Below the pieces are notes generated by a model. The model saw only the letters and a program-made list of their open reading frames with translations, searched no databases and was not told where the DNA came from. A stretch of DNA of 64,000 nucleotides, taken from NCBI RefSeq assembly GCF_002902905.1, contig NZ_CP026124.1:2604001-2668000 (forward strand). Direction: 5' to 3'. This DNA comes from Achromobacter sp. AONIH1 (GTDB lineage Bacteria; Pseudomonadota; Gammaproteobacteria; Burkholderiales; Burkholderiaceae_B). Shown here one piece after another: positions 12,244 to 43,120 of the stretch (position 1 is its first letter; every line of letters starts with the position of its first letter). Both the position numbers and the translations under genes were made by a program.

Positions 12244-15200
12244 ATGACACCGCAAGGCAAGGCATATCTGGACTACCTGCAAGCGAGCCTGGCGGATGCA
12301 TCCAGGTTGGCTCCGGATCTCGAAAGCCTCGACATGCACAACATCTCTGTCGAAACCCTGATGAACGGGCAGGTGAGTGAGCACGTCACAAAAAAGCTGT
12401 TTGAACAAGCTCGCAAGGGCGCTGGCAATCGCTTCGACCCCGCTCGCCTCTGGCCGCTTCCCATAACGGTCGCCCCACAGGCGTTTCTGGCGCGGAGTAG
12501 GCACGGATTCCGTAGCAGTCGCACGCCGGATAGGATCTTGCCGGTATTAATTCATGCTAGGTTGCGCGAGGATGGCCAACTGATCGGTGATGAAAGGCTC
12601 GCCTCTCCCGTCGTCTTGCCTCGCAATCTGTTGGATCCCACTGATTCAGAGATCGTTTTGGGAACCCTCGACGATGCGGACGCAGCCTATGCGCGGCGCA
12701 GCGATGATCCCGGTGCCTGGCCGGCGTTGATCAAGCTGGCGGACGCGTTGATGTTCGCTGTCACGGGCGGTGGCGTGGCCGACATCAAGATCGAAGGGTA
12801 TGTCCCGCAAGACCAAGCGCATGTCTGGTTGCGCGGTTCAGGCGCGACCACCGCCGCCATTGAGACGCTGGTTGATCGCTTGAGGGCGAGCGATGCGCCG
12901 GATGTCCCCCTGCTGACCAAGTTGATCACGGCGGCGCCGGCGCAGGATCTGCTGACGACCTCCAGGCAATTGGCCTTGGGCGCCTTGCACATCGGTCAGA
13001 TGGAATGCCGTTATGGCCTGGCGTCATCGCAGAGAGAATCCTTGGCACATTTTCTTGCGTCGAGCGCGTCTGATGTCCTGGCGGTGGATGGGCCACCGGG
13101 AACCGGCAAGACGACCCTGCTGTTGAGTGTCATCGCAAATCAGTGGGTGCAGGCGGCGCTGGATCGAGAACAGCCGCCTCTGATTGTCGCCGCATCGACC
13201 AATAACCAGGCCGTGCTCAATATTCTGCGGGCTTTCGCACAAGTCACGGAGCCGGAGGGGGCCTTGGCCGGGCGCTGGTTGCCCGGACTTGCCAGCTACG
13301 GTCTGTATATGCCCGCCCAGGGCAAGCAAGGGGGCCAGGAGCAACGGGACTTTCCCGTGCATGCAATAGTCGGCATGGGCCGGGATGCGGACTACGATGT
13401 GAAAGTCCACGAATCAGAGGAAGGCTGCGCGGCGGCAGGTCGGTATTTTCTGGAAAAAGCCCAGGAGGCGTTTCCTGCCGAACCGTTGGTAAGCCTGGAC
13501 GCCGCCTGCCGAGTGATCCATCAGCAGCTGCGGCACACCGTCGAGGCCGTTCGCGCCGTAATGGCTGCGCTGCAGACGATTCGGGAGCTTGCCGGCGATT
13601 CCGCATTCGATATCTCGAGGTCCGAGGCGGTGGCGGCGCGCCTGGGTGACGCCGTGGTGGCTGGTAAAGAGGCGCTGGATGTAGCCTTACGTGACAAGCA
13701 GGACATGCATGGCTTGTACCGCTCCTGGCATCGTCACTGCGCCTCAGAGCCATGGTGGATCGCACTTTTGGCGGTGGCGGGCGCTCGCGGCATGAGGCAG
13801 CGCAGGGACCTTGCCTTCCTGGCGGAAGCAGAGGCTGAGCAGGGTTGGCCGGTGGGCACGCTCTTGCGTGGCTTGAGAGATAGGGACGCGGCTGATCATG
13901 CCTTGCTACGCCTGCTGGAGTCTCAGGAGTCATTGGTGCGCGCAGCTGACGATCAGTTGGGGCGGGCCCGGTCGAGCGAGGCATCTTTCACGCAGGCGCT
14001 CGAAGTACTGAGAAGGATCGTCCCCGCGCCGGATGAACTTACGGCAGAGAAAGTGCTGCTGACGTTGGACATGGGCTTGCGGTTTCGCGCATTCAAGCTG
14101 GCGACGCACTATTGGGAGGCGCGCTATCTGCTAGAGGTGCAGGAACAGATCGTTCGCATGGGGAAAATGGATGACAGCAAGCGGCCGGACAAGCTGATGC
14201 GGCAATACCGGAGGCTGGCCAAGCTCTTTCCATGCTTTGTCTCGACGTTTCACACGCTGCCCAAGCGCTTTGAGGCATTTAATGGAAATCCTGAAACGCT
14301 GTTCAACGCAATCGATCTGTTGATCGTGGACGAAGCGGGTCAGTCCTCGCCGGAAATCGGCGTGCCATCTTTCGGGCTGGCGAAACGAGCGCTGGTGGTG
14401 GGGGATGTCGATCAGATCAAGCCTGTATGGGCGGTGCCCAAATCACTGGACAGGATAAACGCGCAGTTGCACGGCGTCATTCCTCATATGTCCGGGCTGG
14501 AGAACTTTTACGATGAGGGTATCTCGGCGTCGGCAGGGAGTCTGATGGCCCTGGCTAAGCGGGCGACGCCATATTCCAAGCATGCCGCGCGAGGGCGCGG
14601 TATGTTTCTCAGCGAACATCGGCGTTGCTGGCCGGAAATCATCGATATTTGCAACCGGCTTGTCTACCAGGGGCTATTGCAGCCTTGCCGCGATGAAGGC
14701 ATCAGGTTGTTAACGCCTTCTGTTGGCTATGCGCATATTGCGGGTTTGCCGCAGCAGGTTGGCAGGAGCTGGAGAAACTTGCTCGAGGCATCCGTCATTG
14801 CGAAGTGGCTGGCTCAACAAAAGGACGAAATCGAAGCGGCATATCAGGCGGAAAACAAGTCCTTCAACCAGCTAGTGGCAGTCATCACGCCATTTGCAGA
14901 GCAGGCCAAAACCCTGCGCGGCGAACTGAGGAAAACGCTGGGAGAGAGCCATGGTATTACGGTGGGAACCGTGTTTTCGTTGCAAGGCGCCGAGCGGAAA
15001 GTAATTGTTTTCTCGCCTGTCTACGGAGCGGGGATCGGTGCGGGAGCGCCTATGCTGGACCGGGATCCATCGATGTTGAATGTCGCAATATCGCGCGCCC
15101 AAGACGCTTTTCTGGTATTTGGCGACATGCATCTCTTTCATCCAGATGGAGATCGTCCGTCCGCAATCGTCGGGCGCGCACTCTTCAAGGGCACGGAGAG

Positions 15201-15744
15201 CGAGATTCCCATCCCCGCTGAATGGCTGGCGGCGGGTTTCGACATGTCGCCGGCGGCCTTGATACGGGATCTGGCGGGGCACCGGCGCGCCCTGGTGGAA
15301 GCGTTCAGCGTCGCCCGCGCGCGCCTGGTGATTACTTCGCCATTCCTCTCGCTGCGTGCCATCCAGGCGGACGGTGTATTGGAAATGATCCGGAAGGCGG
15401 TGGCCAGAGGGGTGGTGGTGACGATCGTCAGCGATCCGTCCTTTGATTCCAAGAATGAAGACGTCTATCAGCGGTGCGTTGAGTGCCTGTCCGAGGCGGG
15501 AGCGCGGGTTCGGGAGAAACACGTGCATAGCAAGCTGCTGTTGGTCGATTTCGAGTGGTTGGTGGTTGGGTCATTCAACTGGCTGTCCGCCACGCGCGGT
15601 GAAGGGCAGCGCTACGCACGCTACGAATCGTCGTTGAGATATGACGGCGAGGAAGCGTTCGAGATGATCGGCCGCAGCTTGAGCGATCTGAAAGGACTTG
15701 TGGACCTATCGCGGAGTTCAAGGAGTGTGGTGGTTTCTCAATGA
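12244..15744 (+). CDS. mkoC: SF1 helicase fused to PLD nuclease, Mokosh type II-like defence protein
   Basis: A 1,166-residue single-gene system. The AGGAG ribosome site fits ATG 12244. Helicase motifs: Walker A GPPGTGKT at 283-290, Walker B DEAGQ at 696-700, and the SF1 C-terminal motifs VGTVFSLQGAERKV and LNVAISRAQ. The last ~170 residues form one phospholipase-D domain with HSKLLLVD (H1095, K1097, D1102) and the GSFNW motif at 1109-1113. A helicase of the COG1112/UPF1 type plus a C-terminal PLD nuclease in one chain is the stated architecture of Mokosh type II (MkoC), an RNA-targeting anti-phage system. G+C is visibly lower than both neighbours, suggesting transfer. Alternative: another helicase-PLD defence protein outside Mokosh. 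Confidence 0.82.
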   Translation: MTPQGKAYLDYLQASLADASRLAPDLESLDMHNISVETLMNGQVSEHVTKKLFEQARKGAGNRFDPARLWPLPITVAPQAFLARSRHGFRSSRTPDRILPVLIHARLREDGQLIGDERLASPVVLPRNLLDPTDSEIVLGTLDDADAAYARRSDDPGAWPALIKLADALMFAVTGGGVADIKIEGYVPQDQAHVWLRGSGATTAAIETLVDRLRASDAPDVPLLTKLITAAPAQDLLTTSRQLALGALHIGQMECRYGLASSQRESLAHFLASSASDVLAVDGPPGTGKTTLLLSVIANQWVQAALDREQPPLIVAASTNNQAVLNILRAFAQVTEPEGALAGRWLPGLASYGLYMPAQGKQGGQEQRDFPVHAIVGMGRDADYDVKVHESEEGCAAAGRYFLEKAQEAFPAEPLVSLDAACRVIHQQLRHTVEAVRAVMAALQTIRELAGDSAFDISRSEAVAARLGDAVVAGKEALDVALRDKQDMHGLYRSWHRHCASEPWWIALLAVAGARGMRQRRDLAFLAEAEAEQGWPVGTLLRGLRDRDAADHALLRLLESQESLVRAADDQLGRARSSEASFTQALEVLRRIVPAPDELTAEKVLLTLDMGLRFRAFKLATHYWEARYLLEVQEQIVRMGKMDDSKRPDKLMRQYRRLAKLFPCFVSTFHTLPKRFEAFNGNPETLFNAIDLLIVDEAGQSSPEIGVPSFGLAKRALVVGDVDQIKPVWAVPKSLDRINAQLHGVIPHMSGLENFYDEGISASAGSLMALAKRATPYSKHAARGRGMFLSEHRRCWPEIIDICNRLVYQGLLQPCRDEGIRLLTPSVGYAHIAGLPQQVGRSWRNLLEASVIAKWLAQQKDEIEAAYQAENKSFNQLVAVITPFAEQAKTLRGELRKTLGESHGITVGTVFSLQGAERKVIVFSPVYGAGIGAGAPMLDRDPSMLNVAISRAQDAFLVFGDMHLFHPDGDRPSAIVGRALFKGTESEIPIPAEWLAAGFDMSPAALIRDLAGHRRALVEAFSVARARLVITSPFLSLRAIQADGVLEMIRKAVARGVVVTIVSDPSFDSKNEDVYQRCVECLSEAGARVREKHVHSKLLLVDFEWLVVGSFNWLSATRGEGQRYARYESSLRYDGEEAFEMIGRSLSDLKGLVDLSRSSRSVVVSQ

Positions 15745-27290: not shown

Positions 27291-28517
27291 TCAGTCCCGC
27301 ACCAGATACGCCTCGCCGCCCGGTTTCAGATACGGCGTCAGCGCCTTGAACGGCACCTGGGCATGCGTGCCCAAGCACGCGCCCGAGGCATGCCCCACGC
27401 CCGACACCGACAGGCTCAACGCGCCCGGCGCCTGCGCGCCCAGCGCCAGATACTCCGGCCACAGGTCCGCGCAATCTTCCAGGTTCGGATGCTGGTCGGC
27501 CTTGCTGGCGTCCGGCCCCTGGTCCACCGCCTGCTTCACCAGCGTCAGCAGCGCTGCGCTCTTCTCGCCGCCGAACGTGCGCTTGCCGGGCACATAGGCG
27601 TCAAACACCCGGTTCCAGTCCAGATACTCGCCGCGCAGCAGGTCGAAGGTATAGGCATCGAAATGGTTGTACGGATGCGCGCCGCCGCAATCCAGGCTGC
27701 CCGATTCCGTCACGGTCATCAGCGCGCGCGACAGCCAGGTCACTTTCACATCCTCTTCATCAAACCCGCCCAGCGTGCCCGCCATGGGATTGGTGCTGGT
27801 GTACGCGGTCGCCTTGCAGTCCAGCGCGCCCAGGCTCTTTTGCCAATGGCGCTGCTCCAGCAGGTAGTTGATGCGCTGCATGACCTGCGGGTCGGGATGG
27901 CGGGTCAGGCGGGGATAGGGGAATTTGGTGCGCGGGTCCTGCCACATCTGATAGGCGACCGTGGCGTTGCCGATTTCCTTGCCGACGGGCTTGGCGTGGC
28001 CGGCGAGTTTCAGTGTGTCGTAGGGGGCGCGGGTGGAAGTGATGCCGGCGTTCAGGTCCACGTCGCCCAGGTTGACCTGGGTGGCGCGGGCTTGCTTGCG
28101 GTCTTGTTCGAGCTGGGCGGTGTCGTATTGGGCGACGCGTTTCAGGTCGAAATGGCGTTGCTTGCCGGTTTTGGCGTCGGTCCAGGTGCCTTTGTAGGAC
28201 GTGGGGGTGAGGGTGCCTTGCCAGGTGGCGGCGGGGGTGGAGGTGTTGGGGGAGGGGGAGGGTTCGGTCAGGGAGGCGGCGGTGCCGGTCAGGGGGATGT
28301 CTGTGCCGTGGGCGGGGTAGAAGTAGCGGCCGGTTAGGGGGCTGCTGGATGGGGTGGGGGGGGCGTCCAGTTCTAGGACGATGGTGCCGGCGCCTTGGAG
28401 GGGGCCGGTGTAGATGGTGCGGGGGGTGGCGAGGGCTTGGGTGCTGAGTAGGGATAGGGCGGCCAGGGTTAGCGTGGGGAGGAAAATTTGGCGACGATGG
28501 GGGATGAGCAGAGACAT
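27291..28517 (-). CDS. Secreted hypothetical protein with DUF3298-like C-terminal region
   Basis: About 408 residues from ATG 28517, which begins a signal-like segment (IFLPTLTLAALSLLSTQALA). A Thr/Pro/Ser-rich region (~45-110) is followed by a C-terminal domain with GAHPYNHFDAYTFDLLRGEY, similar to the DUF3298/RsiV-type beta-fold. The coding strand of the first ~250 bases is unusually C-rich. The ORF could start 30 bases upstream, but that removes the signal from the N terminus. Probably periplasmic; function unknown. Confidence 0.75.
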   Translation of the reverse strand: MSLLIPHRRQIFLPTLTLAALSLLSTQALATPRTIYTGPLQGAGTIVLELDAPPTPSSSPLTGRYFYPAHGTDIPLTGTAASLTEPSPSPNTSTPAATWQGTLTPTSYKGTWTDAKTGKQRHFDLKRVAQYDTAQLEQDRKQARATQVNLGDVDLNAGITSTRAPYDTLKLAGHAKPVGKEIGNATVAYQMWQDPRTKFPYPRLTRHPDPQVMQRINYLLEQRHWQKSLGALDCKATAYTSTNPMAGTLGGFDEEDVKVTWLSRALMTVTESGSLDCGGAHPYNHFDAYTFDLLRGEYLDWNRVFDAYVPGKRTFGGEKSAALLTLVKQAVDQGPDASKADQHPNLEDCADLWPEYLALGAQAPGALSLSVSGVGHASGACLGTHAQVPFKALTPYLKPGGEAYLVRD

Positions 28518-28691
28518 TTCTTGGATTGTCCGAGAGTCAGGCTGCAATATAGTCGAAGGCTCTTGGAGGGGCCTGTACTGGAGGCCAACGCCGCTAAGAA
28601 GTCGTTGGATGAAAAGCTCAACTTATTTATGGACAATGTCCCCTTTCGGCCAGAAGCCGCCATTCGACAGTCGCCTCATATTCCCCAAGAA

Positions 28692-28720
28692 TTGGCAGTT
28701 GTCAGCGGGCGCGTCATAAT
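28692..28720 (+). promoter_or_regulatory. Sigma70-like promoter for the HEPN/ATPase operon
   Basis: TTGGCA at 28692-28697 and CATAAT at 28715-28720 are separated by 17 bases, 75 bases before the ATG. The surrounding DNA is AT-rich relative to the chromosome. Confidence 0.55.
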
Positions 28721-28794: not shown

Positions 28795-29517
28795 ATGGAT
28801 GTGATAGAGTATTATCGTGCTCTTTTGAAAAACTCGGACGTCGTCATGGATACGATGGTCGGCGCAAATGGAGCAAGTGCGGCACTGATAGCGTCGCACA
28901 ATTATCTGCTTGATTACGATTCACTGAAAATGGCGATCGCGCAACGGCCAGAAGCGACGGTCCTCGAATCAGCAGTAAAAGAATATCAATTCGCTCTTTT
29001 TGCATTGACTTCCGGGCAATATAGACACGCTTTTGGTGGGCTCAGGCTTTTTTTCGAACTCATGCTCGCTACGGTGCAGTTTTCGGCGCACGAAATTGAC
29101 TATAGAATGTGGGCAAAAGACTCGAAAGATATCCACTGGAGCGCATTGAAAGATCCGCAAAGTGGCGTATTTTCGACTAATTTTGTCAAGGCGTTTAATC
29201 CGGCATTTTCGGAATGTGCCAAGCAATATTTGGCTGTTGCTGAAGCGGTATATCGTGAATGTTCGGAATTTGTGCACGGAAATGCAGGCACCCACGCGAT
29301 CCTTCCAGCTGATATTGCATTTCAAGAACAGGCTTTTTTTTCTTGGCATGACAAAGCGAAGACAATGCGATTGGCGATCATTTTTGCCTTCTCTGCTCGA
29401 TACCTGAATTACGTTACTAGAGAGGCGGCGGATCGAATGGAACCGATAATTACGGATGCTCTAGGGAATTTGCCTCCGGTTCAGGCAATGTTCTCAAAAC
29501 CAGCGACAGGTGGATAA
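28795..29517 (+). CDS. HEPN-like helical protein, possible RNase component of a defence system
   Basis: A 240-residue, largely alpha-helical protein without signal or membrane segment. Near residue 154 it reads YRECSEFVHGN; R154 and H161 fit the Rx4-6H spacing of HEPN ribonucleases, and FVHGN is typical of HEPN-like helices. The ribosome site AGGGGG lies 5 bases before the ATG. The stop is 2 bases before the ATPase gene, so they form one operon. G+C is low (near 45% by eye), unlike the chromosome. The HEPN call rests on one motif and needs structural comparison; a Swt1/AbiV-type HEPN is one option, a non-catalytic helical partner another. Confidence 0.55.
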   Translation: MDVIEYYRALLKNSDVVMDTMVGANGASAALIASHNYLLDYDSLKMAIAQRPEATVLESAVKEYQFALFALTSGQYRHAFGGLRLFFELMLATVQFSAHEIDYRMWAKDSKDIHWSALKDPQSGVFSTNFVKAFNPAFSECAKQYLAVAEAVYRECSEFVHGNAGTHAILPADIAFQEQAFFSWHDKAKTMRLAIIFAFSARYLNYVTREAADRMEPIITDALGNLPPVQAMFSKPATGG

Positions 29518-29519
29518 CC

Positions 29520-31130
29520 ATGGTAGACTTTTTCTTTCGAACTGAGGATATCCGGCCGGAAGAGGTGCTTGACTATTTTGTTGAAACCTCGAAAGACCGT
29601 CAGATCGTTGACGAGCTAAAAAATCGAAATCCTGTTGTTTTGGTAGGGAGTCGAGGCGTCGGCAAGTCATTCTTGCTTCGAGTGGCACAAAAGGAGCTCA
29701 TGGATGCGTTCGAGACGGATCGCGTGTTCCCGATCTACATCAGCTTCGTCAGAAGTTCCTTGCTGCAGTCGTCCGATCCAGACCAGTTCAAACATTGGAT
29801 GCTTGCAAGAATTTGCTCGTCGGTAATGAGAGGCTTGGCAAAAGCCGGCTTGCTCGGTGGCATGCCCAAGACAATAAGGCTGCTAGCTGGTGGAGCGGTG
29901 ACGACATCGATTGGGCGCACGAAGATTGAGGAAATTGCTGACGCGTACGAAGCCTCTTGGAAAACGCCGAAAATCCCGGTGGAAGCAGACGATCTTCCTA
30001 GCATCGATGACTTCAAGGAAGCGTTAGAAGATCTGGCCGAGGAAATCAAAATCTCTCGGTTTGCCCTTCTCTTCGATGAGGCCGCGCACATATTTTTGCC
30101 GGAACAACAGCGGCAATTCTTTACGATGTTTAGAGATCTGCGATCGCACTGCATTACTTGCAATGCTGCGGTCTATCCAGGCGTAACGACGTTCGGTGAG
30201 ACTTTTCAACCGGTTCACGACGCGACGATGCTCACCATTGATCGCGATATCCTCGCGGATGACTATGTAGAGAATATGCGGGAAATCGTCCAAAAGCAGG
30301 CGGATAGCAATCTTCTCGCCCAAATTGCGCAGTATGGAAAGAATTTTGCCACTCTGGCGTACGCTGCGAATGGTAATCCTCGTCTATTGTTGAAGACGAT
30401 CGCTCATTGTCCGAAAATGAATTCTCAACAAGTAAACGAGATAATTAGGGAGTTTTATCGAACAGATATATGGGCCGAACACTCTACACTATCCGAAAAA
30501 TATCTGGGGCACAAAGCTCTAATTGATTGGGGTAGAGAGTTTATTGAAACCCAGGTGCTTCCAGATATTAAAGCGAAGAATGATCAGTATTTGGCTTCCG
30601 ATAAAGCCACGTCGGCTTTCTTTTGGATTAATAGAGATGCACCAGAACTGGTAAAAGAGGCATTGCGAGTCCTTGCCTATACTGGAATCGTGGTGGAGCA
30701 TGCGACCGGCATCAAGGCAAGCCGGGCCGAAATTGGAAAGCGTTACGTGATTAATTTAGGGTGTCTTTTCGCACTTGAGGCATCTCCAACGAATTCGGCT
30801 TTTGAAATTGCAAAGCAATTGACTCCAAAGAGGATGACCGAATACGGGTCGAATTTTCCGTTGTATAAAAAGCTGACTGACCAAGCGGCGCTGATCACTA
30901 ACGACGGCATGGAATTGGCGCTCAATGTTCAACTGGACAGGCCCGCCACTGTACTGGATTTGACAGCATGGCAGATAGAAAAATTGGCGGAGCTCGGGCT
31001 GAATACTGTGCGCGACGTTTTGAATGCAACAGAGGAGAAGCTTAAAGAGGCAAATTACGTTGGAGACGTGCGTGCGCGTCGAATGCGCAATGCAGCGGTT
31101 GCCGCAGTACTCGAGTATCTGTCGGGCTGA
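29520..31130 (+). CDS. ORC/CDC6-like AAA ATPase with C-terminal helix-hairpin-helix
   Basis: A 536-residue P-loop ATPase. Walker A GSRGVGKS at 43-50, Walker B FALLFDEAAH at 181-190 (D186, E187), then a winged-helix-like region. The extreme C terminus (~480-536: IEKLAELGLNTVRDVL, ATEEKLKEANYVG) resembles a helix-hairpin-helix or RNA-polymerase-alpha-CTD fold that binds DNA. The N terminus (FFFRTEDIRPEEVLDYFVET) is typical of ORC/CDC6-like ATPases found in defence loci. It is translationally adjacent to the HEPN-like gene; low GC. Inferred role: nucleic-acid-sensing switch that controls its partner. Confidence 0.8.
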   Translation: MVDFFFRTEDIRPEEVLDYFVETSKDRQIVDELKNRNPVVLVGSRGVGKSFLLRVAQKELMDAFETDRVFPIYISFVRSSLLQSSDPDQFKHWMLARICSSVMRGLAKAGLLGGMPKTIRLLAGGAVTTSIGRTKIEEIADAYEASWKTPKIPVEADDLPSIDDFKEALEDLAEEIKISRFALLFDEAAHIFLPEQQRQFFTMFRDLRSHCITCNAAVYPGVTTFGETFQPVHDATMLTIDRDILADDYVENMREIVQKQADSNLLAQIAQYGKNFATLAYAANGNPRLLLKTIAHCPKMNSQQVNEIIREFYRTDIWAEHSTLSEKYLGHKALIDWGREFIETQVLPDIKAKNDQYLASDKATSAFFWINRDAPELVKEALRVLAYTGIVVEHATGIKASRAEIGKRYVINLGCLFALEASPTNSAFEIAKQLTPKRMTEYGSNFPLYKKLTDQAALITNDGMELALNVQLDRPATVLDLTAWQIEKLAELGLNTVRDVLNATEEKLKEANYVGDVRARRMRNAAVAAVLEYLSG

Positions 31131-31223
31131 TAACGAAAACAGCCGTCAAACTAAATTGTGGAGGCTAGGAGAAACTTCCTCGTCTTCGGTGCTGCGGAAC
31201 TTAAAGCAAGACGCAAGGGATGT

Positions 31224-34200
31224 ATGGGAAAGAAGTCGCGAGAGAAGCGTGAACGTCGGGAGCGCGCTGACGCGAGGAATGCGGCGACGTCGCTGCTCAA
31301 ACAGATGCAGGAGTTCCACGGTAGATCAGAGCAACAGGAGGAGGCCGACCTGCACTTCCAGCGTGACGTAGTGGCTGTAGAGGCGGTACTGCGCAAATAC
31401 GTGCGCTTAGATGCCGCTGTAGCAGTGGCCGTATCAGACCTTTGGCCGCCGAATGTGGCTAGCCCTGTCAAGCACCTGTTAGCCTGGGCAGTGCTCCTGG
31501 GTCTTCAGAGCGACTCGAACGACGCGCAGTCAATCCAGACTCACGAAGACTTCGCCCGCTTTCTGGCGGAGCTCTACGCGGCTTGGCCGGAGTTCCCGAC
31601 GCTAGAGGACTGCCCCATCGAAGCAGATTGGGGCCGAGTTCGCGTCCCCCTTGGCGATAGCTACGTGCCGATGTTCTACGGCAGCTGCGTCGAGCGGCTT
31701 CCGGATTTTGTGCAGGCATTCCGCATCACGCATGCCGGCAACCAGGCAGCACTGGCCGACATGGACTTTGCTGTCGCTCTGCACGCTGACCTGATTGGGG
31801 CAGTTCCGAGCCCGGCCGACGCTGCATTCCCGGAGCCTGATCACGGTCACGTGGAGGTGCCGCCCGAGGATTTCTGGGCTTCGTGCCGTGCGGCGCTCCT
31901 TAGTACAGGCGCTCGGGTCGCCAAATGGCGAGCCAACGCAAGCGCCAAGCTGGTCACTTCCATGGGCGCATACAAGGCGCCACTGACTTGGGCGGCGTTT
32001 GGGGACGCTGTCCTCACGGGCGGAGCCCTGCCGTGCCTGGGCGTAGCGCAAGGCGAAACGTGGGTTCCAGTCTCGTTGCGGAGTGGACCGGGGGTCATCA
32101 TCGATCACTGGGCTGAAGTTGGGGCGCTAGGCATCACCGCGCAAACTCACAAGGCAGTCGGCCGTTATATCGCCGCCCGACTGCGACATGTGATCGTCGG
32201 CCCGATGAAGCTAATGGTCAGCCGACAAGAATTCTCAGCCCTGACGGTCAGCTGCACCAACACCGGAGGCTCAAAGGTACATCTGTTCTGCACCTGCGAC
32301 CATCGGTCACTTGAGGCTGCCGGCGCCGCGGCTTCCGCGGTCTATGCAGCTCTTCGCAGCGGCGGTGTCCTGAACCTGCGAAATGACGATGGGCGGGGTC
32401 TAACTTTCGGCCGAGGTGAGCAGGGCGGCCCCGGGGCTGACGATGTGCAGATAGTTATCGTCCTGACGCAGTCTGGTACTGGTTTCAACATGCTTGAGGC
32501 GCCCAAGCGGCCCACGAGGGTCATACCCTTGGCTGACTTCGTCAGCATCTTCGATGGCCTCGAGGACATGCAGGAGCTTGAGCAGTTCTGGAGCTTTGCG
32601 GACACACAGCGGGCAACGCTGTCGCCCTTCTCCCGCGCGCTTGCTGACCTCTTCGGGACGTTCAAGGACACGCACGGGGTGCTCGTAGAGGGAGCCATCA
32701 ACCCGATGATGATTACCCTAGATCCGCATTGGGGCAGCGGGTGGCGCTTCCGTAGCCTGACCGAGTTCTGGGCGTCGGCGCCGCCGCGCTTCCCGGACGG
32801 GTCGCCTGGATGGCACGTGAAGCGCACCGCCAAGGGGGTCGTTGAACTTCGCTCGCGTCACCATGCTGCGATGGCGTACTCCACCCAGGTCGGCTCCTGC
32901 ACCGTCCAAACAACGGTGACGGTGGAGCCCGGGCTGGAGGTCGAAGACGTCAAGATGGCGGACATGTTCGCGCAGATGGTTATCGACACGCTTCATGAGT
33001 GCGCAGGCGACTTCCAATCGGAAGCGCTATTTCAACGACAACAGCTGGTCTTCGCCTGCCGCGTCGCCGATCAGGGTCGAGTTGACCGAGAGCAGTTTCC
33101 GGCGCCTCTGGAGACCTTCGAGAAAATAGTGCTGTCTGCCACCGGAAGCGTGGCGAACCCAGCACGCGTTGAACTGAGACTGCATGCAACCGCCATACAG
33201 GCTGGCCTGAACGGGGCGCGGAACGCAGCCTTCGAGACCCGCTGCCTTCAAGAGGCATTTTCCGCCTGCACAGCGTCACTCGGCATCCCTGCCCCGCAGA
33301 ATCTTGCAACCCGACTGGCGGCCCTCGCGGCGAGACCCGCACGGTACCATCTGCAGATGGTGGAGCGGACGATAGACGTGCCCGACTTTGCTGACCCAGT
33401 CATTCCAACGCCAACGGAGTACAAGCTCGCGCGCAAGGCACTGGCCGTCGTGATGAAGGAAAGTGGGCTCGAGCCTGGTCGCTACGAGCTGCACGAGGCA
33501 AAGGTTCGCATCGACGCGGCTCGAGAACGCTTTCGCCTTCACCTCGAAAAGCGGCTTGCATCCCTGGATAGGGAGATGCTGGCCATGGCCTGTGTCGAGC
33601 AGCACGACGGCTTACTTCTTGCCAGGCGCATCCGCGAGACCCGAGTGCATCAGAGCCGCGTCCACCAAGTCGACTACGACCGCTTGGAAGCTCTCTCCGA
33701 GGCTCGGAAGGAGTTCGAACACACCGCTCGCAACTACCGGTACCTGTTGGAGAAGTCAGTCAACTCCACCACGAGTGGCCAGGAGCGAATCACGCCGCAG
33801 CTCCTGCGAGAACTCATTGGATTGGTTGACTGGTACATGGTTCTTGCGGGAGCCAGCGACGTGTTGCACAACCAGGTTGACGTAGGCGGCGTAGACATCG
33901 ACGACCAGTTCGTCCCCGAGGTCTTCTACTCTGAGACTTGGCAGGAGCAAGAGGAAGAGTACGCGCACGAGTTAGCGAGAATCAGGCTAGGCGAGGGCAT
34001 CAAGAATGCCGACGCCGTGGAGGGCGCAGCCGCGGAGCTTCTGGTGAGTGAAGAGCTCCAGAAGGCATTCCGGGCTGACGTGGGGTTCGAGCTGCAGAAG
34101 CTCCTGCAGGCCCTGGCGGTGTTTACCCAGCCGGTGCGCCATGGCTTGGCGGACGACTTGGCGTTGTTCTATCTTGGAGAGCCGGACCACCTTGCTCATG

Positions 34201-35018
34201 CCATCGTGCAGGGCTTTGAGGGAATCACGCTGGCCGAGGCTGCCGCAATCGTGTCGTTCCTGACGCTTTCGGGACCCGACATCAGGCGCCTGCCCGGCAA
34301 GGCAATCGACGAGAGCGATATCCCGTTCTGGGAGCACAGCAAGCGTCTTCATCGCTATGCCATCCGGCCTCTTGCCCCTGTCGGCAAGCAGGTCGTCTGG
34401 GGAGCCGAGCATGCTAGTCGGTCTCAGCTCATATGGCTGTCAGCCGTTCGAGACGGCGTTCTCCCAGCCGACTTCCGGTGGCCAAACGTCCAGGCAGTCG
34501 TCAAGTCCATCAAGAAATCCATTGAGGATGCGCTCGAGGACCGAGCCGTGGAGATCCTCAAGCGCCACACCCCGTACGTTGAAGGCGGCGTGGATTTCTT
34601 CCGTCGGTTTCGCAAGGATGGATTCGCAGACGTCGGGGACTACGACGTCCTCGCCTACTGGCCGGCCACGAACACGGTCCTCTATGCGGAATGCAAGTAC
34701 AACCAGACGACGCACTCAATAAAGGACTCGCGGCGGCTGCGAGACCGCATGTTCGGCGTGAGCGACGTGGACAGAGATGGCCAGTACAGTCGAATTCGCG
34801 GCCGTCGAGAGTTCCTGGCCCAGAATCGAGACAGGATGTTTGCCCTCTTAAAGTGGCCCAAGCCCGCGCAAGTGCCTCCCAGAGACGTGGAGGTTTATGT
34901 CAGCCGCGAGCTTCACTATTGGATGGTGCACCCGCCGTATGAGGTTCCCACCAAGTTCATCCGAGTGGACGCCTTGGATGCCTGGGTAACCAATGGGATG
35001 AGAACAGAGAAGCACTAG
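31224..35018 (+). CDS. Large protein of unknown family with C-terminal PD-(D/E)xK-like nuclease site
   Basis: 1,264 residues from ATG 31224, which has an AAGGGA ribosome site; a GTG 66 bases upstream is less likely. The first ~20 residues are strongly basic (KKSREKRERRERADAR). The middle ~1,000 residues match nothing I recognise; some segments look coiled (around 760-860). The C terminus reads GDYDVLAYWP and, 14 residues after D1141, E1156-C-K1158, the D...ExK spacing of PD-(D/E)xK nucleases. G+C is about 60%, between the low-GC pair upstream and the chromosome. Spacing (93 bases) is compatible with an operon, but the GC step suggests separate acquisition. Followed by an IS256-family insertion. 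Confidence 0.7.
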   Translation: MGKKSREKRERRERADARNAATSLLKQMQEFHGRSEQQEEADLHFQRDVVAVEAVLRKYVRLDAAVAVAVSDLWPPNVASPVKHLLAWAVLLGLQSDSNDAQSIQTHEDFARFLAELYAAWPEFPTLEDCPIEADWGRVRVPLGDSYVPMFYGSCVERLPDFVQAFRITHAGNQAALADMDFAVALHADLIGAVPSPADAAFPEPDHGHVEVPPEDFWASCRAALLSTGARVAKWRANASAKLVTSMGAYKAPLTWAAFGDAVLTGGALPCLGVAQGETWVPVSLRSGPGVIIDHWAEVGALGITAQTHKAVGRYIAARLRHVIVGPMKLMVSRQEFSALTVSCTNTGGSKVHLFCTCDHRSLEAAGAAASAVYAALRSGGVLNLRNDDGRGLTFGRGEQGGPGADDVQIVIVLTQSGTGFNMLEAPKRPTRVIPLADFVSIFDGLEDMQELEQFWSFADTQRATLSPFSRALADLFGTFKDTHGVLVEGAINPMMITLDPHWGSGWRFRSLTEFWASAPPRFPDGSPGWHVKRTAKGVVELRSRHHAAMAYSTQVGSCTVQTTVTVEPGLEVEDVKMADMFAQMVIDTLHECAGDFQSEALFQRQQLVFACRVADQGRVDREQFPAPLETFEKIVLSATGSVANPARVELRLHATAIQAGLNGARNAAFETRCLQEAFSACTASLGIPAPQNLATRLAALAARPARYHLQMVERTIDVPDFADPVIPTPTEYKLARKALAVVMKESGLEPGRYELHEAKVRIDAARERFRLHLEKRLASLDREMLAMACVEQHDGLLLARRIRETRVHQSRVHQVDYDRLEALSEARKEFEHTARNYRYLLEKSVNSTTSGQERITPQLLRELIGLVDWYMVLAGASDVLHNQVDVGGVDIDDQFVPEVFYSETWQEQEEEYAHELARIRLGEGIKNADAVEGAAAELLVSEELQKAFRADVGFELQKLLQALAVFTQPVRHGLADDLALFYLGEPDHLAHAIVQGFEGITLAEAAAIVSFLTLSGPDIRRLPGKAIDESDIPFWEHSKRLHRYAIRPLAPVGKQVVWGAEHASRSQLIWLSAVRDGVLPADFRWPNVQAVVKSIKKSIEDALEDRAVEILKRHTPYVEGGVDFFRRFRKDGFADVGDYDVLAYWPATNTVLYAECKYNQTTHSIKDSRRLRDRMFGVSDVDRDGQYSRIRGRREFLAQNRDRMFALLKWPKPAQVPPRDVEVYVSRELHYWMVHPPYEVPTKFIRVDALDAWVTNGMRTEKH

Positions 35019-35116: not shown

Positions 35117-36460
35117 GGGCCTGTCATTAATTTCGTGTTCAAGGCATAACATACGTCCAAGGAGCATGTATGCCTCGCACCCCGAAGTCCAAGCTGGCGG
35201 ATCTGCCGGCTATTCCCCGTGAGTTGTTGGAGTCGTTCGGTAACGGCCCGATGACGGCCGAAGCCATCAACGCCGCCTCTCTGGCCTTCAAGAAGGCCTT
35301 GATCGAACGAGCGCTCGCAGGTGAGATGAACCATCATCTAGGCTATCCGAGCGGTGCGGCCAAGCCGGCCGATGTCGCCAACCAGCGCAATGGCAAGGGC
35401 GCCAAGACGGTGCTCACCGAGGAAGGCCCTGTGCGTATCGAGGTGCCGCGCGACCGCGACGGCAGCTTCGCGCCGCTGCTTATCCCCAAGCACGAACGGC
35501 GTTTCACAGGTTTTGACGACAAGATCGTCGCCATGTACGCCCGAGGCATGACGGTGCGCGAGATCCAGGGATTTCTGCTGGAGCAATATGCCACCGAGGT
35601 CTCACCGGAGTTCATCAGTTCAGTGACCGATGAGGTCATGGCCGAGGTCACTGCCTGGCAGTCTCGGCCTCTGGAACCGATGTACCCGGTCGTCTTCTTT
35701 GACGCGCTGCGGGTCAAGATCCGCCAGGATGCGGTCGTACGCAACAAGGCCATCTACCTGGCGCTGGGTGTGTTGCCCGATGGTTCACGCGATATTCTTG
35801 GCCTTTGGATCGAGGGCACCGAAGGCGCCAAGTTCTGGATGAAGGTCTTCAATGATCTGAAGACCCGAGGCGTGGGCGATATCCTGATCGCCGTGAACGA
35901 TGGCTTGAAGGGCATGCCCGAGGCCCTGGCCGCTGTCTTTCCCGCGACCACGCTGCAAACCTGCATCGTGCATCTGATCCGCAACAGCCTGGATTATGCG
36001 ACTTGGAAGGACCGCAAGGCGCTTGCCGCAGCCATTCGGCCGATCTATACCGCCACGAGCGCCGAGACAGCCGAGGCTGAGCTTGATGCCTTCTCCGAAG
36101 GCCCCTGGGGGCAGAAATTCCCTACGATCCGCGCCGCGTGGCGCAGCGCCTGGGATCGCGTGATTCCCTTCTTCGCATTTCCGCCAGAGGTGCGCCGAGT
36201 GATTTATACGACCAACGCCATCGAGAGCATCAATGCCCAGTTGCGCAAGATCATCAAGACGCGAGGCCATTTCCCGTCCGACGATGCGGCAACAAAGCTG
36301 ATCTGGCTGGCCTTGCGCAATATCACCGCAGATTGGGGACGGCCGGCTCGCGATTGGAAGCAGGCCATGAACCAATTCGCTATCCTCTATCAGGAACGGT
36401 TCATCAGGCCTTCTGTGTAATTCCTAAGCCCGCCTTGAACACGGAATTTCTGACACTCCC
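35117..36460 (+). mobile_element. IS256-family insertion sequence, complete (1,344 bp)
   Basis: Imperfect ~29-bp terminal inverted repeats: left 35117-35145 and right 36432-36460, sharing GGG, TGTCA, AATT and CGTGTTCAAGGC. They enclose one intact transposase gene. An exact 8-bp duplication (GAAAGTGC) flanks it, as expected for IS256-family transposition (8-9 bp). Removing the element and one repeat rejoins an intergenic sequence, so no gene was broken. Confidence 0.92.
35170..36420 (+). CDS. IS256-family transposase
   Basis: 416 residues, full length for the family. Catalytic DDE: D in PVVFFDALRVKIR (~176), D in ILIAVNDGLKGMPEAL (~240), and E in RVIYTTNAIESINAQLRK (~345). The N-terminal segment and the CIVHLIRNSL motif are typical. 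ATG 35170 is preceded by AAGGAG at 35159-35164. The frame is unbroken, so the element may be active. Confidence 0.95.
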   Translation: MPRTPKSKLADLPAIPRELLESFGNGPMTAEAINAASLAFKKALIERALAGEMNHHLGYPSGAAKPADVANQRNGKGAKTVLTEEGPVRIEVPRDRDGSFAPLLIPKHERRFTGFDDKIVAMYARGMTVREIQGFLLEQYATEVSPEFISSVTDEVMAEVTAWQSRPLEPMYPVVFFDALRVKIRQDAVVRNKAIYLALGVLPDGSRDILGLWIEGTEGAKFWMKVFNDLKTRGVGDILIAVNDGLKGMPEALAAVFPATTLQTCIVHLIRNSLDYATWKDRKALAAAIRPIYTATSAETAEAELDAFSEGPWGQKFPTIRAAWRSAWDRVIPFFAFPPEVRRVIYTTNAIESINAQLRKIIKTRGHFPSDDAATKLIWLALRNITADWGRPARDWKQAMNQFAILYQERFIRPSV

Positions 36461-40460: not shown

Positions 40461-42161
40461 CTAGGCGCTGTGTTCGTCCGCTGCGGGCTCGAAGTCCGGG
40501 TCGCGCATGCGGATATGGCGCAGCAGGATGTCCGACAAACGAGGCTTGCGGTTCGCCACGATGATGGCGTTGGCGGCGCTCTTGAACTTGCTCCATGCCA
40601 GTTTGTAGCGGTCGTGGTCTGCTTCCATTCCGGGCAGGCGCTCGCTGTAGAACGTCAGGAAGCGCTTCAGCTCGTCGAACGCATAGCTCTCGATGGCCTT
40701 GCGTAATTGCACGGACGAGATGTTCTGCAGGAAGGGCATGAGCGCTTCCGAGGCCGACGGCGGATCGGCCTCGATCTGCTCGACCGCGTCCATGACGGTC
40801 TGCATGGGGCGGCGTGATTCGTTGACCTCCCGGATCGCCTGCGCGATGGGGTCGGCCAACCCTTGCAGGACGCTTTCCTGCACATATTCTTTCGAAGCCT
40901 TGCGCCAATGCCGACCCCAGGCCTCGGCCATGTGCGACGCCCAGTCCTGGCCGCCGCGCCGTTCCAGGTCGCGGATGATGGTGCTGGCCATCTGCGGGGC
41001 CAGGGCTTGCCAGCCGTTCGCGCCCCAGTCGCGGACCATGCGCTGGAAGGTCTGGTCGGTGGCGTCCGGGTCGTAGAGCGCGCGGTCCACATAGTCCAGC
41101 GCGGCCATCTGGGCGGTCGCGTGCAGCGCCCGCTCATCTCGCGCCTGCATCCTGGCCGTCACGCGGGCCGCGTCGAGCGGGTGATGCCGCACGAAGTCCG
41201 ACAGCAGGGACAGCAGTTCGGTGTCGCTGATGACGCTGCATCGCACGGCCAGCAGGGCGGCGTCGCCGGGCAGCGTGTTGCCCAGCTGATCGGCGCAGAC
41301 CCGGGTCCAGTCTTCCAGGAAGGTCTCCACCTGTTTGTCAGGAAAGCGGTTCTCGTAGTGCAGGACGGCCAGGAAGACCAGGCTGCGCAGGATGTATTCG
41401 GGCAGGGGCTGTTGCGGCTCACGGCCGGGAATCGCCTTCCTGAACGCATCGGTCAGTCGCTCGATGCGCTGGATGATGCGGATGTTGGTCAGACCGGCGG
41501 CCTCGGCCGTGGCGACGATAGGCTCGCGGTCCGGGCAAGCAGGCGACAAGCCCAATCCGCAGGCATCGGCCGGCGTGGGCCGCAGGTTGATCTCCGCGTC
41601 CAGGCATTTCTCCCGCACGGCGCGCCATTCCTTGCCCTGGTTGGCGCTCAGTTCTTCCTCGTTGTAGATCAGCAGCACGGTGCAGCCCTTGCCCTTGAGC
41701 GCGTCCACATAGCCGAACAGCGTCTCCAGCGACAGCGCGGCGTCGCGGCGTTCCAGGTCGTCCACCACGATGATGCGCTCGCGCACCAGCATGCCGGTGA
41801 TGACGGATTCGGCCAGCGCGCCGGTCGCCAGCAGTGCGTCGGCGGCCTCGCCGATGAAGGGGATGTTGCGCAGCGCGTCGGTGAGTTTTTTGCCGGTTTC
41901 CTTGATGACCTTGCCGCCGGCTTCGCCGTACTTGGAGGCGTTGCTGGCGGCGTCCTGCAACAGCGCGCGGCCGATCTCGTCCGGCGATTTCAGGCCGAAG
42001 CAGGAGGCGTACAGGGCGGTCTTCGCGGCGGGCAGCGTGTCACGCAGGGAAAGCCATAGATGCGTCTTGCCCGCGCCCCAGCGTCCACTCAGGCCGAGCA
42101 CCTGGCCTTTGCCGTTTTCAAGAAACTGGGTCAGGGCGTTCCTGCTTGCGTTCAGGTCCAT
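40461..42161 (-). CDS. KAP-like P-loop NTPase
   Basis: A 566-residue ATPase from ATG 42161 (MDLNASRNALTQFL); the open frame extends upstream without a clear start. Walker A GRWGAGKT at 26-33 and Walker B VVDDLERRD at 132-140 fit KAP/STAND-type NTPases. The rest is helical with no membrane segment. It lies 128 bases after a membrane-protein gene on the same strand, forming a likely two-gene module. KAP ATPases often sit with membrane partners and appear in phage-exclusion loci, so a defence or membrane-signalling role is possible. Confidence 0.75.
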   Translation of the reverse strand: MDLNASRNALTQFLENGKGQVLGLSGRWGAGKTHLWLSLRDTLPAAKTALYASCFGLKSPDEIGRALLQDAASNASKYGEAGGKVIKETGKKLTDALRNIPFIGEAADALLATGALAESVITGMLVRERIIVVDDLERRDAALSLETLFGYVDALKGKGCTVLLIYNEEELSANQGKEWRAVREKCLDAEINLRPTPADACGLGLSPACPDREPIVATAEAAGLTNIRIIQRIERLTDAFRKAIPGREPQQPLPEYILRSLVFLAVLHYENRFPDKQVETFLEDWTRVCADQLGNTLPGDAALLAVRCSVISDTELLSLLSDFVRHHPLDAARVTARMQARDERALHATAQMAALDYVDRALYDPDATDQTFQRMVRDWGANGWQALAPQMASTIIRDLERRGGQDWASHMAEAWGRHWRKASKEYVQESVLQGLADPIAQAIREVNESRRPMQTVMDAVEQIEADPPSASEALMPFLQNISSVQLRKAIESYAFDELKRFLTFYSERLPGMEADHDRYKLAWSKFKSAANAIIVANRKPRLSDILLRHIRMRDPDFEPAADEHSA

Positions 42162-42289
42162 GCCGGGGTTCCACTTTTCTGGTGAGTTCACGGAGGATGC
42201 CTGCGTCGCCGGAAAGGTGGCTGGCGGACAGGGCGATAGCGGCCAGGAATCGTACCGCATGCATGGCCGCGCGATCTGGCCGCCTTGGG

Positions 42290-43120
42290 CTACTTGCCTC
42301 CGTCTTCCGGCTTGTTGTCCGCAGGCGCGGACTCCGGCGAGCACATGGTGGGATGCGGGGTATCCGGCTTGCCGGGCAGGCGTTGCGACAGCGGCGGGCT
42401 GATTGTTCTGGCAATGGCCGATTTGGGCACGGCGGACGCTGCGCCCGCCTGCAAGACGGCGCAGGTGTCGGTGTTGCACCAGAGTTGATGGATGACCCCT
42501 TGGTTCGGGTCAAAACCGGGAAGATGGGGAATCGTGGGCAGTGCGGCCAGTGGAACCTCCTGGCAATAATCCTGTGCGTCGCGTTTGCCTATGACTCCAA
42601 ACGGCTCAACCAGCACGATCAGGCTGCAAGCGACGAGAAGCGCGATCACGAGGATCGAACCGGGGATCGCGAGGACATAGCCAGCAAGCCCGGCCGCGAT
42701 ATAGGCAATCTGGCGTGGCAGACTGAGGTCTTTAAACGGGATCGCGGTGGCCGAGACGCGAGGCTTGGCGGCCTTCCTACGGAGTTTTTCGATCGCCAGG
42801 AGGAGGATGAGCATCACGCAGCCGATCGTCGCTGGCAAGAGCATCGACATGAGTATGTCGAGAAACCAATCGCCGGAGGTCAGCAGGATATGGGCGGCGC
42901 CATTGCCCCAGGCGCGATAGGCAAGCCACATCGCATCCGACGTGGAGATGCTCATCTGTGTGTTGTCGAGGTGAAAATACGCCAGATAGCCGGCGTGATA
43001 CGCCTTGCCCTGCAGGTAGAACATCGCCGTCAGGAAGACGGTGAATGGAATGGGAATCAGGCGAAGCCAGCTTTTCTTTCCGGAGTTTTCCGCGTTCTTG
43101 TCGGTTGTTTCGTTTTGCAT
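42290..43120 (-). CDS. Integral membrane protein, partner of the KAP-like NTPase
   Basis: 276 residues. A basic N terminus is followed by a membrane helix at ~18-36, then a pair around 85-112 (FLDILMSMLLPATIGCVMLI) and 135-168. The C-terminal ~90 residues are outside the membrane and contain CNTDTCAVLQ, possibly periplasmic. No family recognised. It precedes the NTPase gene in the same orientation with no terminator seen. Confidence 0.7.
   Translation of the reverse strand: MQNETTDKNAENSGKKSWLRLIPIPFTVFLTAMFYLQGKAYHAGYLAYFHLDNTQMSISTSDAMWLAYRAWGNGAAHILLTSGDWFLDILMSMLLPATIGCVMLILLLAIEKLRRKAAKPRVSATAIPFKDLSLPRQIAYIAAGLAGYVLAIPGSILVIALLVACSLIVLVEPFGVIGKRDAQDYCQEVPLAALPTIPHLPGFDPNQGVIHQLWCNTDTCAVLQAGAASAVPKSAIARTISPPLSQRLPGKPDTPHPTMCSPESAPADNKPEDGGK

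Follow-up and report, generated by a model that had tools for sequence, protein, structure and literature searches.

The window, i.e. the whole stretch of DNA analysed here, is 64,000 nucleotides long and is part of the single-contig 6.65 Mb genome of Achromobacter sp. AONIH1 (NZ_CP026124.1, positions 2,604,001 to 2,668,000). It contains three successive genes on the plus strand, as stated in the preliminary description. The first gene (28795..29517, +) codes for P1, a HEPN-like protein of 240 aa which carries the motif R154-x6-H161 and is a predicted RNase effector. The second (29520..31130, +) codes for P2, an ORC/CDC6-like AAA+ ATPase of 536 aa with a C-terminal helix-hairpin-helix, recognised by the model PF24389 and by its Walker motifs and predicted to be a DNA sensor or switch. 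The third codes for the giant protein P3, which has a PD-(D/E)xK-like site close to its C-terminus, is remotely Upx-like and is treated below as a separate unit. Its open reading frame starts at 31158 (GTG) or 31224 (ATG) and ends at 35018. The ATG is most likely the start codon, since most aligned homologues begin there (MGKKSREKRERR) and the residue numbering used earlier fits this start; the gene is then 31224..35018 (+) and P3 has 1264 aa. P1 and P2 are 2 bp apart, and 93 bases separate P2 from the ATG of P3. A stretch upstream of P1 (28647..28794, +) is common to the window and its closest relative (L002), the DNA similarity to which begins at 28647. Within this stretch a consensus scan places a promoter-like site, TTGGCA-17-CATAAT, at 28692-28720, which is weak evidence because the scan finds 5 such sites compared to 3.0 in shuffled sequences.

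The GC content falls to 47-48.5% at 29-31 kb, compared to 66.1% for the window overall. It is 46% in P1, 49% in P2 and 61.5% in P3, with GC3 values of 44%, 52% and 72%, respectively, and P3 is therefore not of the same composition as P1 and P2. An IS256-family element (35122..36455, +; transposase 35170-36420, NCBIfam IS256 E 4e-117) which belongs to neither unit sits about 100 bp past P3; its end repeats are alike in 21 of 24 bases and it is present in a single copy in the genome. The earlier picture of an anomalous-GC island beside an IS holds for the GC dip and the transposase, not for a single island of three genes, as P3 differs in both composition and partners. When ten same-genus pieces of 20 kb were compared in search of an empty site, the similarity of the left flank stopped at 28233-28483, and no counterpart of the right flank turned up in these pieces.

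Elsewhere in the window a gene at 12244-15744 (+), located in a GC dip of 56-63%, codes for a protein of 1166 aa which matches Mokosh MkoC (E 7e-300); as predicted from this match it is a second defence locus of the window. About 5 kb beyond the IS256-family element a gene at 40461-42479 (-) codes for a KAP-type NTPase (PF07693, E 1e-7), which matches the candidate defence model PDC-S49 with E 2e-18.

The HEPN-type motif noted earlier in P1 is indeed present. R154 and H161 do not vary in any of 69 homologues, the rows being chosen among the matches listed (120 of 170), and they are also kept in a cyanobacterial homologue (Planktothrix) with 27% identity. When equal numbers of invariant R and H were placed randomly the HEPN spacing arose by chance in 6% (A1) to 12% (A3) of the trials, and the motif seems to exceed chance only partly. 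No family match for P1 was found in Pfam, PADLOC, NCBIfam or PHROGs. With the Pfam models at E<=1 none of the 69 members matched a HEPN model, only scattered weak matches being seen, and there was no HEPN profile match for the Planktothrix homologue. By a crude propensity estimate P1 is 46% helix and 28% strand, so that an all-helical fold is not favoured. DUF5677 and DUF6988 were tried as bridging families and rejected; each was matched in 1 of 21 genomes and no alignment was formed. The motif, its conservation and the analogy with the partners of other ATPases of this kind (see below) lead us to regard P1 as quite probably a HEPN protein.

P2 matches PF24389 (ORC/CDC6-like AAA+) with E 1e-16 and 61 bits, where the cut-off is 27, and it also weakly matches the AAA, DnaA and STAND models of Pfam, each under its cut-off. 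The Walker A/B motifs are intact, as had been proposed: all 20 relatives in the alignment retain G43-x-R45-G46-x-G48-K49 and D186. The proposed C-terminal helix-hairpin-helix was recovered as a match to HHH_5 (E 0.004, below the Pfam cut-off). A homologue on a Planktothrix plasmid is 42% identical to P2, and three more plasmid relatives, from Rhizobium, Cupriavidus and Limimaricola, show 24-29% identity. The latter three align along P2, with an insertion that precedes the tail; the insertion in Cupriavidus matches zinc-ribbon models below cut-off. The gene after each of the three ATPases codes for a protein of 274-349 aa that has the motif RHxxVH (RHCAVH, RHAVVH or RHCCVH). These partner proteins are homologous to one another; one of them matches HEPN_RiboL-PSP (E 0.0012, below cut-off) and the other two match nothing. 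A profile comparison between P1 and these partners gave no alignment. Two of the three ATPases are located directly after a methyltransferase gene, and the third (Limimaricola) is found near a ParD/RelE pair.

The cut-off of PF24389 is exceeded in 10 of 369 genomes, G000 included. A general link between PF24389 ATPases and HEPN proteins is unsupported: by eye, the ATPase has another kind of partner in six of the remaining nine. The neighbour of the ATPase in G369 carries RNHVQH. It should be noted that a count of R-x4-6-H motifs near these ATPases decides nothing because such strings are frequent in open reading frames, those of other partners included. Six loci (L075, L076, L077, L078, L079 and L080) have strong PF24389 ATPases, each beside a partner of about 300-360 aa of another kind, and methylase genes are seen by eye near some of them; this arrangement is perhaps another undescribed ORC/CDC6-centred system.

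The site D1141-x14-E1156-x-K1158 reported earlier for P3 was confirmed, all three residues being invariant in 52 of 52 homologues (rows chosen among the matches listed, 120 of 289). In 25 aligned homologues E1156-x-K1158 is the sole invariant [E/D]-x-K, and invariant D residues are located 15 and 17 positions before it. We take this nuclease-like motif to exceed chance. Of the PADLOC models only Upx is matched by the 25 P3 members, 14 of which match at E<=0.1, the best with E 1.5e-4; this similarity is weak but specific. Residues 908-1158 of P3 are colinear with positions 930-1177 of Upx, i.e. its C-terminal third, and the similarity ends at the nuclease-like site. The homologue in G284 matches the PADLOC model at E 2.2e-4, and for the homologue in G086 there was no PADLOC match. 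In a search of 369 genomes the NCBIfam Upx model matched a single protein, the G284 homologue (E 1.2e-6, 25.6 bits, cut-off 1900); no protein was above the cut-off, and P3 of the window and the G086 homologue were unmatched at E<=0.001. Scored directly against the NCBIfam model, P3 of the window reaches 11.3 bits. That P3 is Upx proper was rejected, the scores of 11.3 and 25.6 bits being far below 1900. The P3 profile also matches PDB 9wuf chain A ('Restriction endonuclease', 1272 aa) with E 0.0086 through GDxD...ECK. The length of this entry and the coordinates of its match, 927-1178 compared to 930-1177 in PADLOC Upx, suggest that 9wuf may be Upx or a near relative. P3 is most likely an Upx-like single-gene nuclease. 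The earlier statement that the set matches no named system does not wholly hold for P3, which is probably a distant relation of Upx, a named single-gene system.

The P3 homologue in G086 is a stand-alone gene between housekeeping-type genes (by eye). In G479 the homologue adjoins a NACHT protein with Avs1b-like similarity, which makes one locus in three with a defence neighbour, in a hand-picked set without a background rate. In G284 (L015 12308-16481) three genes follow the homologue. The products of two of them, 225 and 360 aa, have no Pfam or PADLOC match; the third, 777 aa, ends in a SEC-C motif and has PDC-S12 and E2-type C-terminal matches. P3 had no match among phages nor viral contigs, and its G284 homologue had none among plasmids; a weak match to P3 on the Lactococcus plasmid pFI430 has 20.5% identity over 18%.

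Nine loci with P1-P2 were fetched: six from a scan of a genome collection with P2, two from a scan of viral contigs and one, Planktothrix, from a plasmid search; one of them (L007), whose contig starts within P1, is counted. P1 and P2 are adjacent in all nine, and P3 is found in none. P3 homologues are found in three further loci (G086, G284 and G479), none of which has P1 or P2 within the 18-19.5 kb around the homologue. All three genes together were thus seen in 0 of 12 other loci bearing P1-P2 or P3. DNA similarity to all eight near relatives ends at 31128-31166, and the stop codon of P2 is at 31130. In six of the eight the similarity begins at the start codon of P1 or at most 148 bases upstream; the other two are L007, which is cut by the end of its contig, and L017, which has diverged. 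Among the matches listed (120 per protein) contigs of equal size were shared 43 times between P1 and P2, never between P1 and P3 and once between P2 and P3, and this single shared value is 4353 bases, too short for both genes. P3 homologues were found in 2 of 368 other genomes of the class sample and in 2 of 378 others of the order sample, G284 being in both, and in none of 60 relatives. The search of the class sample with P2 gave G000 as the sole match.

The preliminary description had combined the three genes into one cassette, a sensor ATPase with two nuclease-like effectors. On co-occurrence and on the DNA boundary at the P2 stop this cassette was rejected. Co-occurrence had been set beforehand as the refuting test, and in the loci compared outside the window it was found for the pair P1-P2 and not for the three genes. 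As judged from the sequences compared, the three genes probably do not make up a single system; the parts had been correctly read and the grouping was wrong.

P1-P2 relatives are listed from many Proteobacteria and from a cyanobacterial plasmid. Known defence genes adjoin the pair in four of eight near loci, a hand-picked scan without a background rate. These genes are RdrA and RdrB in L004 (E 9e-20 and 2e-24), a methylase and an endonuclease of type II in L006 and L016, the latter locus also having Vsr, and an AbiJ_NTD3 protein in L003 (E 3e-26), for which PADLOC gives nothing. For L002, L005, L007 and L017 the neighbourhoods were inspected only by eye. Inspection by eye also places the pair amid prophage-type genes in L006, L016 and L017. 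The DNA block common to the eight near relatives, like the unit in the window, has no modification gene, and this block has no transposase or partition gene. At blastn sensitivity no sequence similar to the P1-P2 DNA was found in 5,426 E. coli genomes, and P2 had no match among phages. In Planktothrix the pair is part of a same-strand run. At L086 4463-13889 it is accompanied by genes for a DUF4007 protein, a protein of 1170 aa, a PAPS reductase and a DEAD-box helicase, and the run also includes genes for an ATP-binding protein, a DUF2779 protein and a phospholipase D family protein. According to passages in PMC12839542, DUF4007, PAPS reductase and BrxC-type ATPase are equated with SspB, SspD and SspC. 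The 1170-aa protein, for which the Pfam scan gave nothing over cut-off, might at a guess be SspC-like. The putative HEPN-ATPase pair of this plasmid is built into a phosphorothioation-type cluster.

The reading which we favour, with confidence somewhat on the better side of even, is that the locus combines two mobile defence units, adjacent and independent of each other: a sensor ATPase with a HEPN RNase (P1-P2), and a stand-alone nuclease remotely related to Upx (P3). A defence role is likely for both. What was observed is the pairing of the genes, the limits of the units, the conserved motifs, the family matches and the defence neighbours; the following scheme is inferred. P2 would use its ORC/CDC6-like AAA+ domain and helix-hairpin-helix tail to sense DNA that is foreign or abnormal, and by assembling in an ATP-dependent manner it would license P1. 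P1, if folded as a HEPN RNase, would then cleave host or phage RNA, by which the infection would be stopped. P3, a giant nuclease of an undescribed family with a presumed PD-(D/E)xK fold at its C-terminal site, would probably recognise and cut foreign DNA there. For P1-P2 a sensor or switch with an RNase effector is the most parsimonious interpretation. Passages of PMC10853773, PMC8195603 and PMC12839542 describe the ORC/CDC6 and STAND ATPases of many conflict systems as scanners bound to DNA or as NTP switches, and parts of PMC3710099 describe HEPN domains as RNase effectors, some of them fused to AAA+ ATPases.

We regard P1-P2 as a good candidate for a two-gene system as yet unnamed. No pair of stand-alone HEPN and ORC/CDC6 genes was found in the abstracts and text passages of the published literature searched. 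A bolder version, which we put forward tentatively and would not expect to hold in full, is that P1-P2 founds an undescribed and widespread two-gene anti-phage class. In this class an ORC/CDC6-HhH ATPase would read DNA and turn on a separate HEPN RNase, and N6-methylase and phosphorothioation systems would have adopted the pair as a plug-in effector. P3 would in that case represent a second family of giant nucleases besides Upx. If this is true P1-P2, which spans 2.5 kb, would be among the smallest ways of joining a DNA-binding ATPase to an RNase effector. P3 would widen the Upx kind, and remote families sharing only the nuclease-bearing third could help to separate the sensing part from the cutting part.

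Several other explanations have to be weighed. The single cassette, with the ATPase as sensor for two effectors, the HEPN-like protein and the PD-(D/E)xK protein, could appeal to the common strand, to the start of P3 93 bases past P2 and to the gap between them, for which no terminator-like site is listed. The 12 other loci, the end of the shared block at the P2 stop in 8 of 8 and the composition of P3, unlike that of P1 and P2, leave it with hardly any probability. An antitoxin is usually a small protein. It is unlikely that P1-P2 is a toxin-antitoxin or addiction pair, with P1 as a free toxin restrained by P2 and defence as a secondary effect. The tight two-gene operon, the HEPN-type motif, the prophage-like and plasmid contexts and the ParD/RelE pair adjoining the Limimaricola ATPase would all suit such a pair. 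An ATPase of 536 aa with a DNA-binding-type tail does not resemble the usual antitoxin, however, and the association with methylase and with DUF4007 and PAPS reductase genes fits DNA sensing.

The same associations could also mean that P2 serves a restriction-like system as its DNA-scanning motor, P1 being recruited as a DNA-acting nuclease or adaptor and the self-marking by methylation or phosphorothioation being provided from elsewhere. Two of the three plasmid relatives come directly after a methyltransferase gene, and the Planktothrix pair shares its run with the genes equated with SspB and SspD (in the passages of PMC12839542). Yet the unit and the block common to the near relatives are without a modification gene, i.e. 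the pair is autonomous there, and we find this motor quite improbable. Finally P1 may be no HEPN protein at all, and the pair may serve maintenance or transposition of mobile DNA. Such a role would agree with the missing family match, the chance of 6-12% for the motif spacing and the mixed propensity estimate, and ORC/CDC6-type ATPases serve transposases too, as stated in parts of PMC10853773. It is nevertheless very unlikely given that the motif is retained in the 27%-identical cyanobacterial homologue, that relatives of P2 have HEPN-type partners, that half of the near loci have defence neighbours and that the shared DNA block is without transposase or partition gene. The two side-by-side defence units remain the preferred reading.

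Among known systems, DS-41 protein 1 (NCBIfam NF053860) weakly matches P2 over residues 14-107 (E 3e-5), with 23 bits compared to a cut-off of 370 and no match to P1. By its name this model would be the DS-41 which is named in passages of PMC13092281, a paper whose systems were found in E. coli. SspC, BrxC/BrxD and the HerA-linked ATPases of the ORC/CDC6 clade resemble P2 in clade and in the proposed role as DNA-bound scanner or switch (parts of PMC10853773 and PMC12839542), and the DUF4007 and PAPS reductase genes beside the Planktothrix homologue of P1-P2 add to this likeness. As described in passages of the same two papers, such conflict ATPases pair with endonucleases, HerA/FtsK, KAP or TIR, and a stand-alone HEPN gene is not among the partners described.

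HEPN domains fused to DUF499 ATPases (passages of PMC3710099 and PMC12839542) likewise combine a HEPN-type motif with an AAA+/STAND/ORC-CDC6-type ATPase in a defence setting. In contrast to these fusions P1 and P2 are separate genes, in a unit without helicase or methylase; P2 is of the PF24389 type with a helix-hairpin-helix tail, and P1 is in none of the listed HEPN families. For P3 the closest known system is Upx (NCBIfam NF042954, PADLOC PDLC02221), a single-gene anti-phage protein. The two differ in that the best score is 25.6 bits compared to a cut-off of 1900, that 11 of 25 P3 members have no match at E<=0.1 and that the first two thirds have no detectable similarity. They are alike in length (models of 1240 and 1271 positions, P3 1264 aa), in the colinear C-terminal third and in being encoded by a stand-alone gene, as seen by eye in G086.
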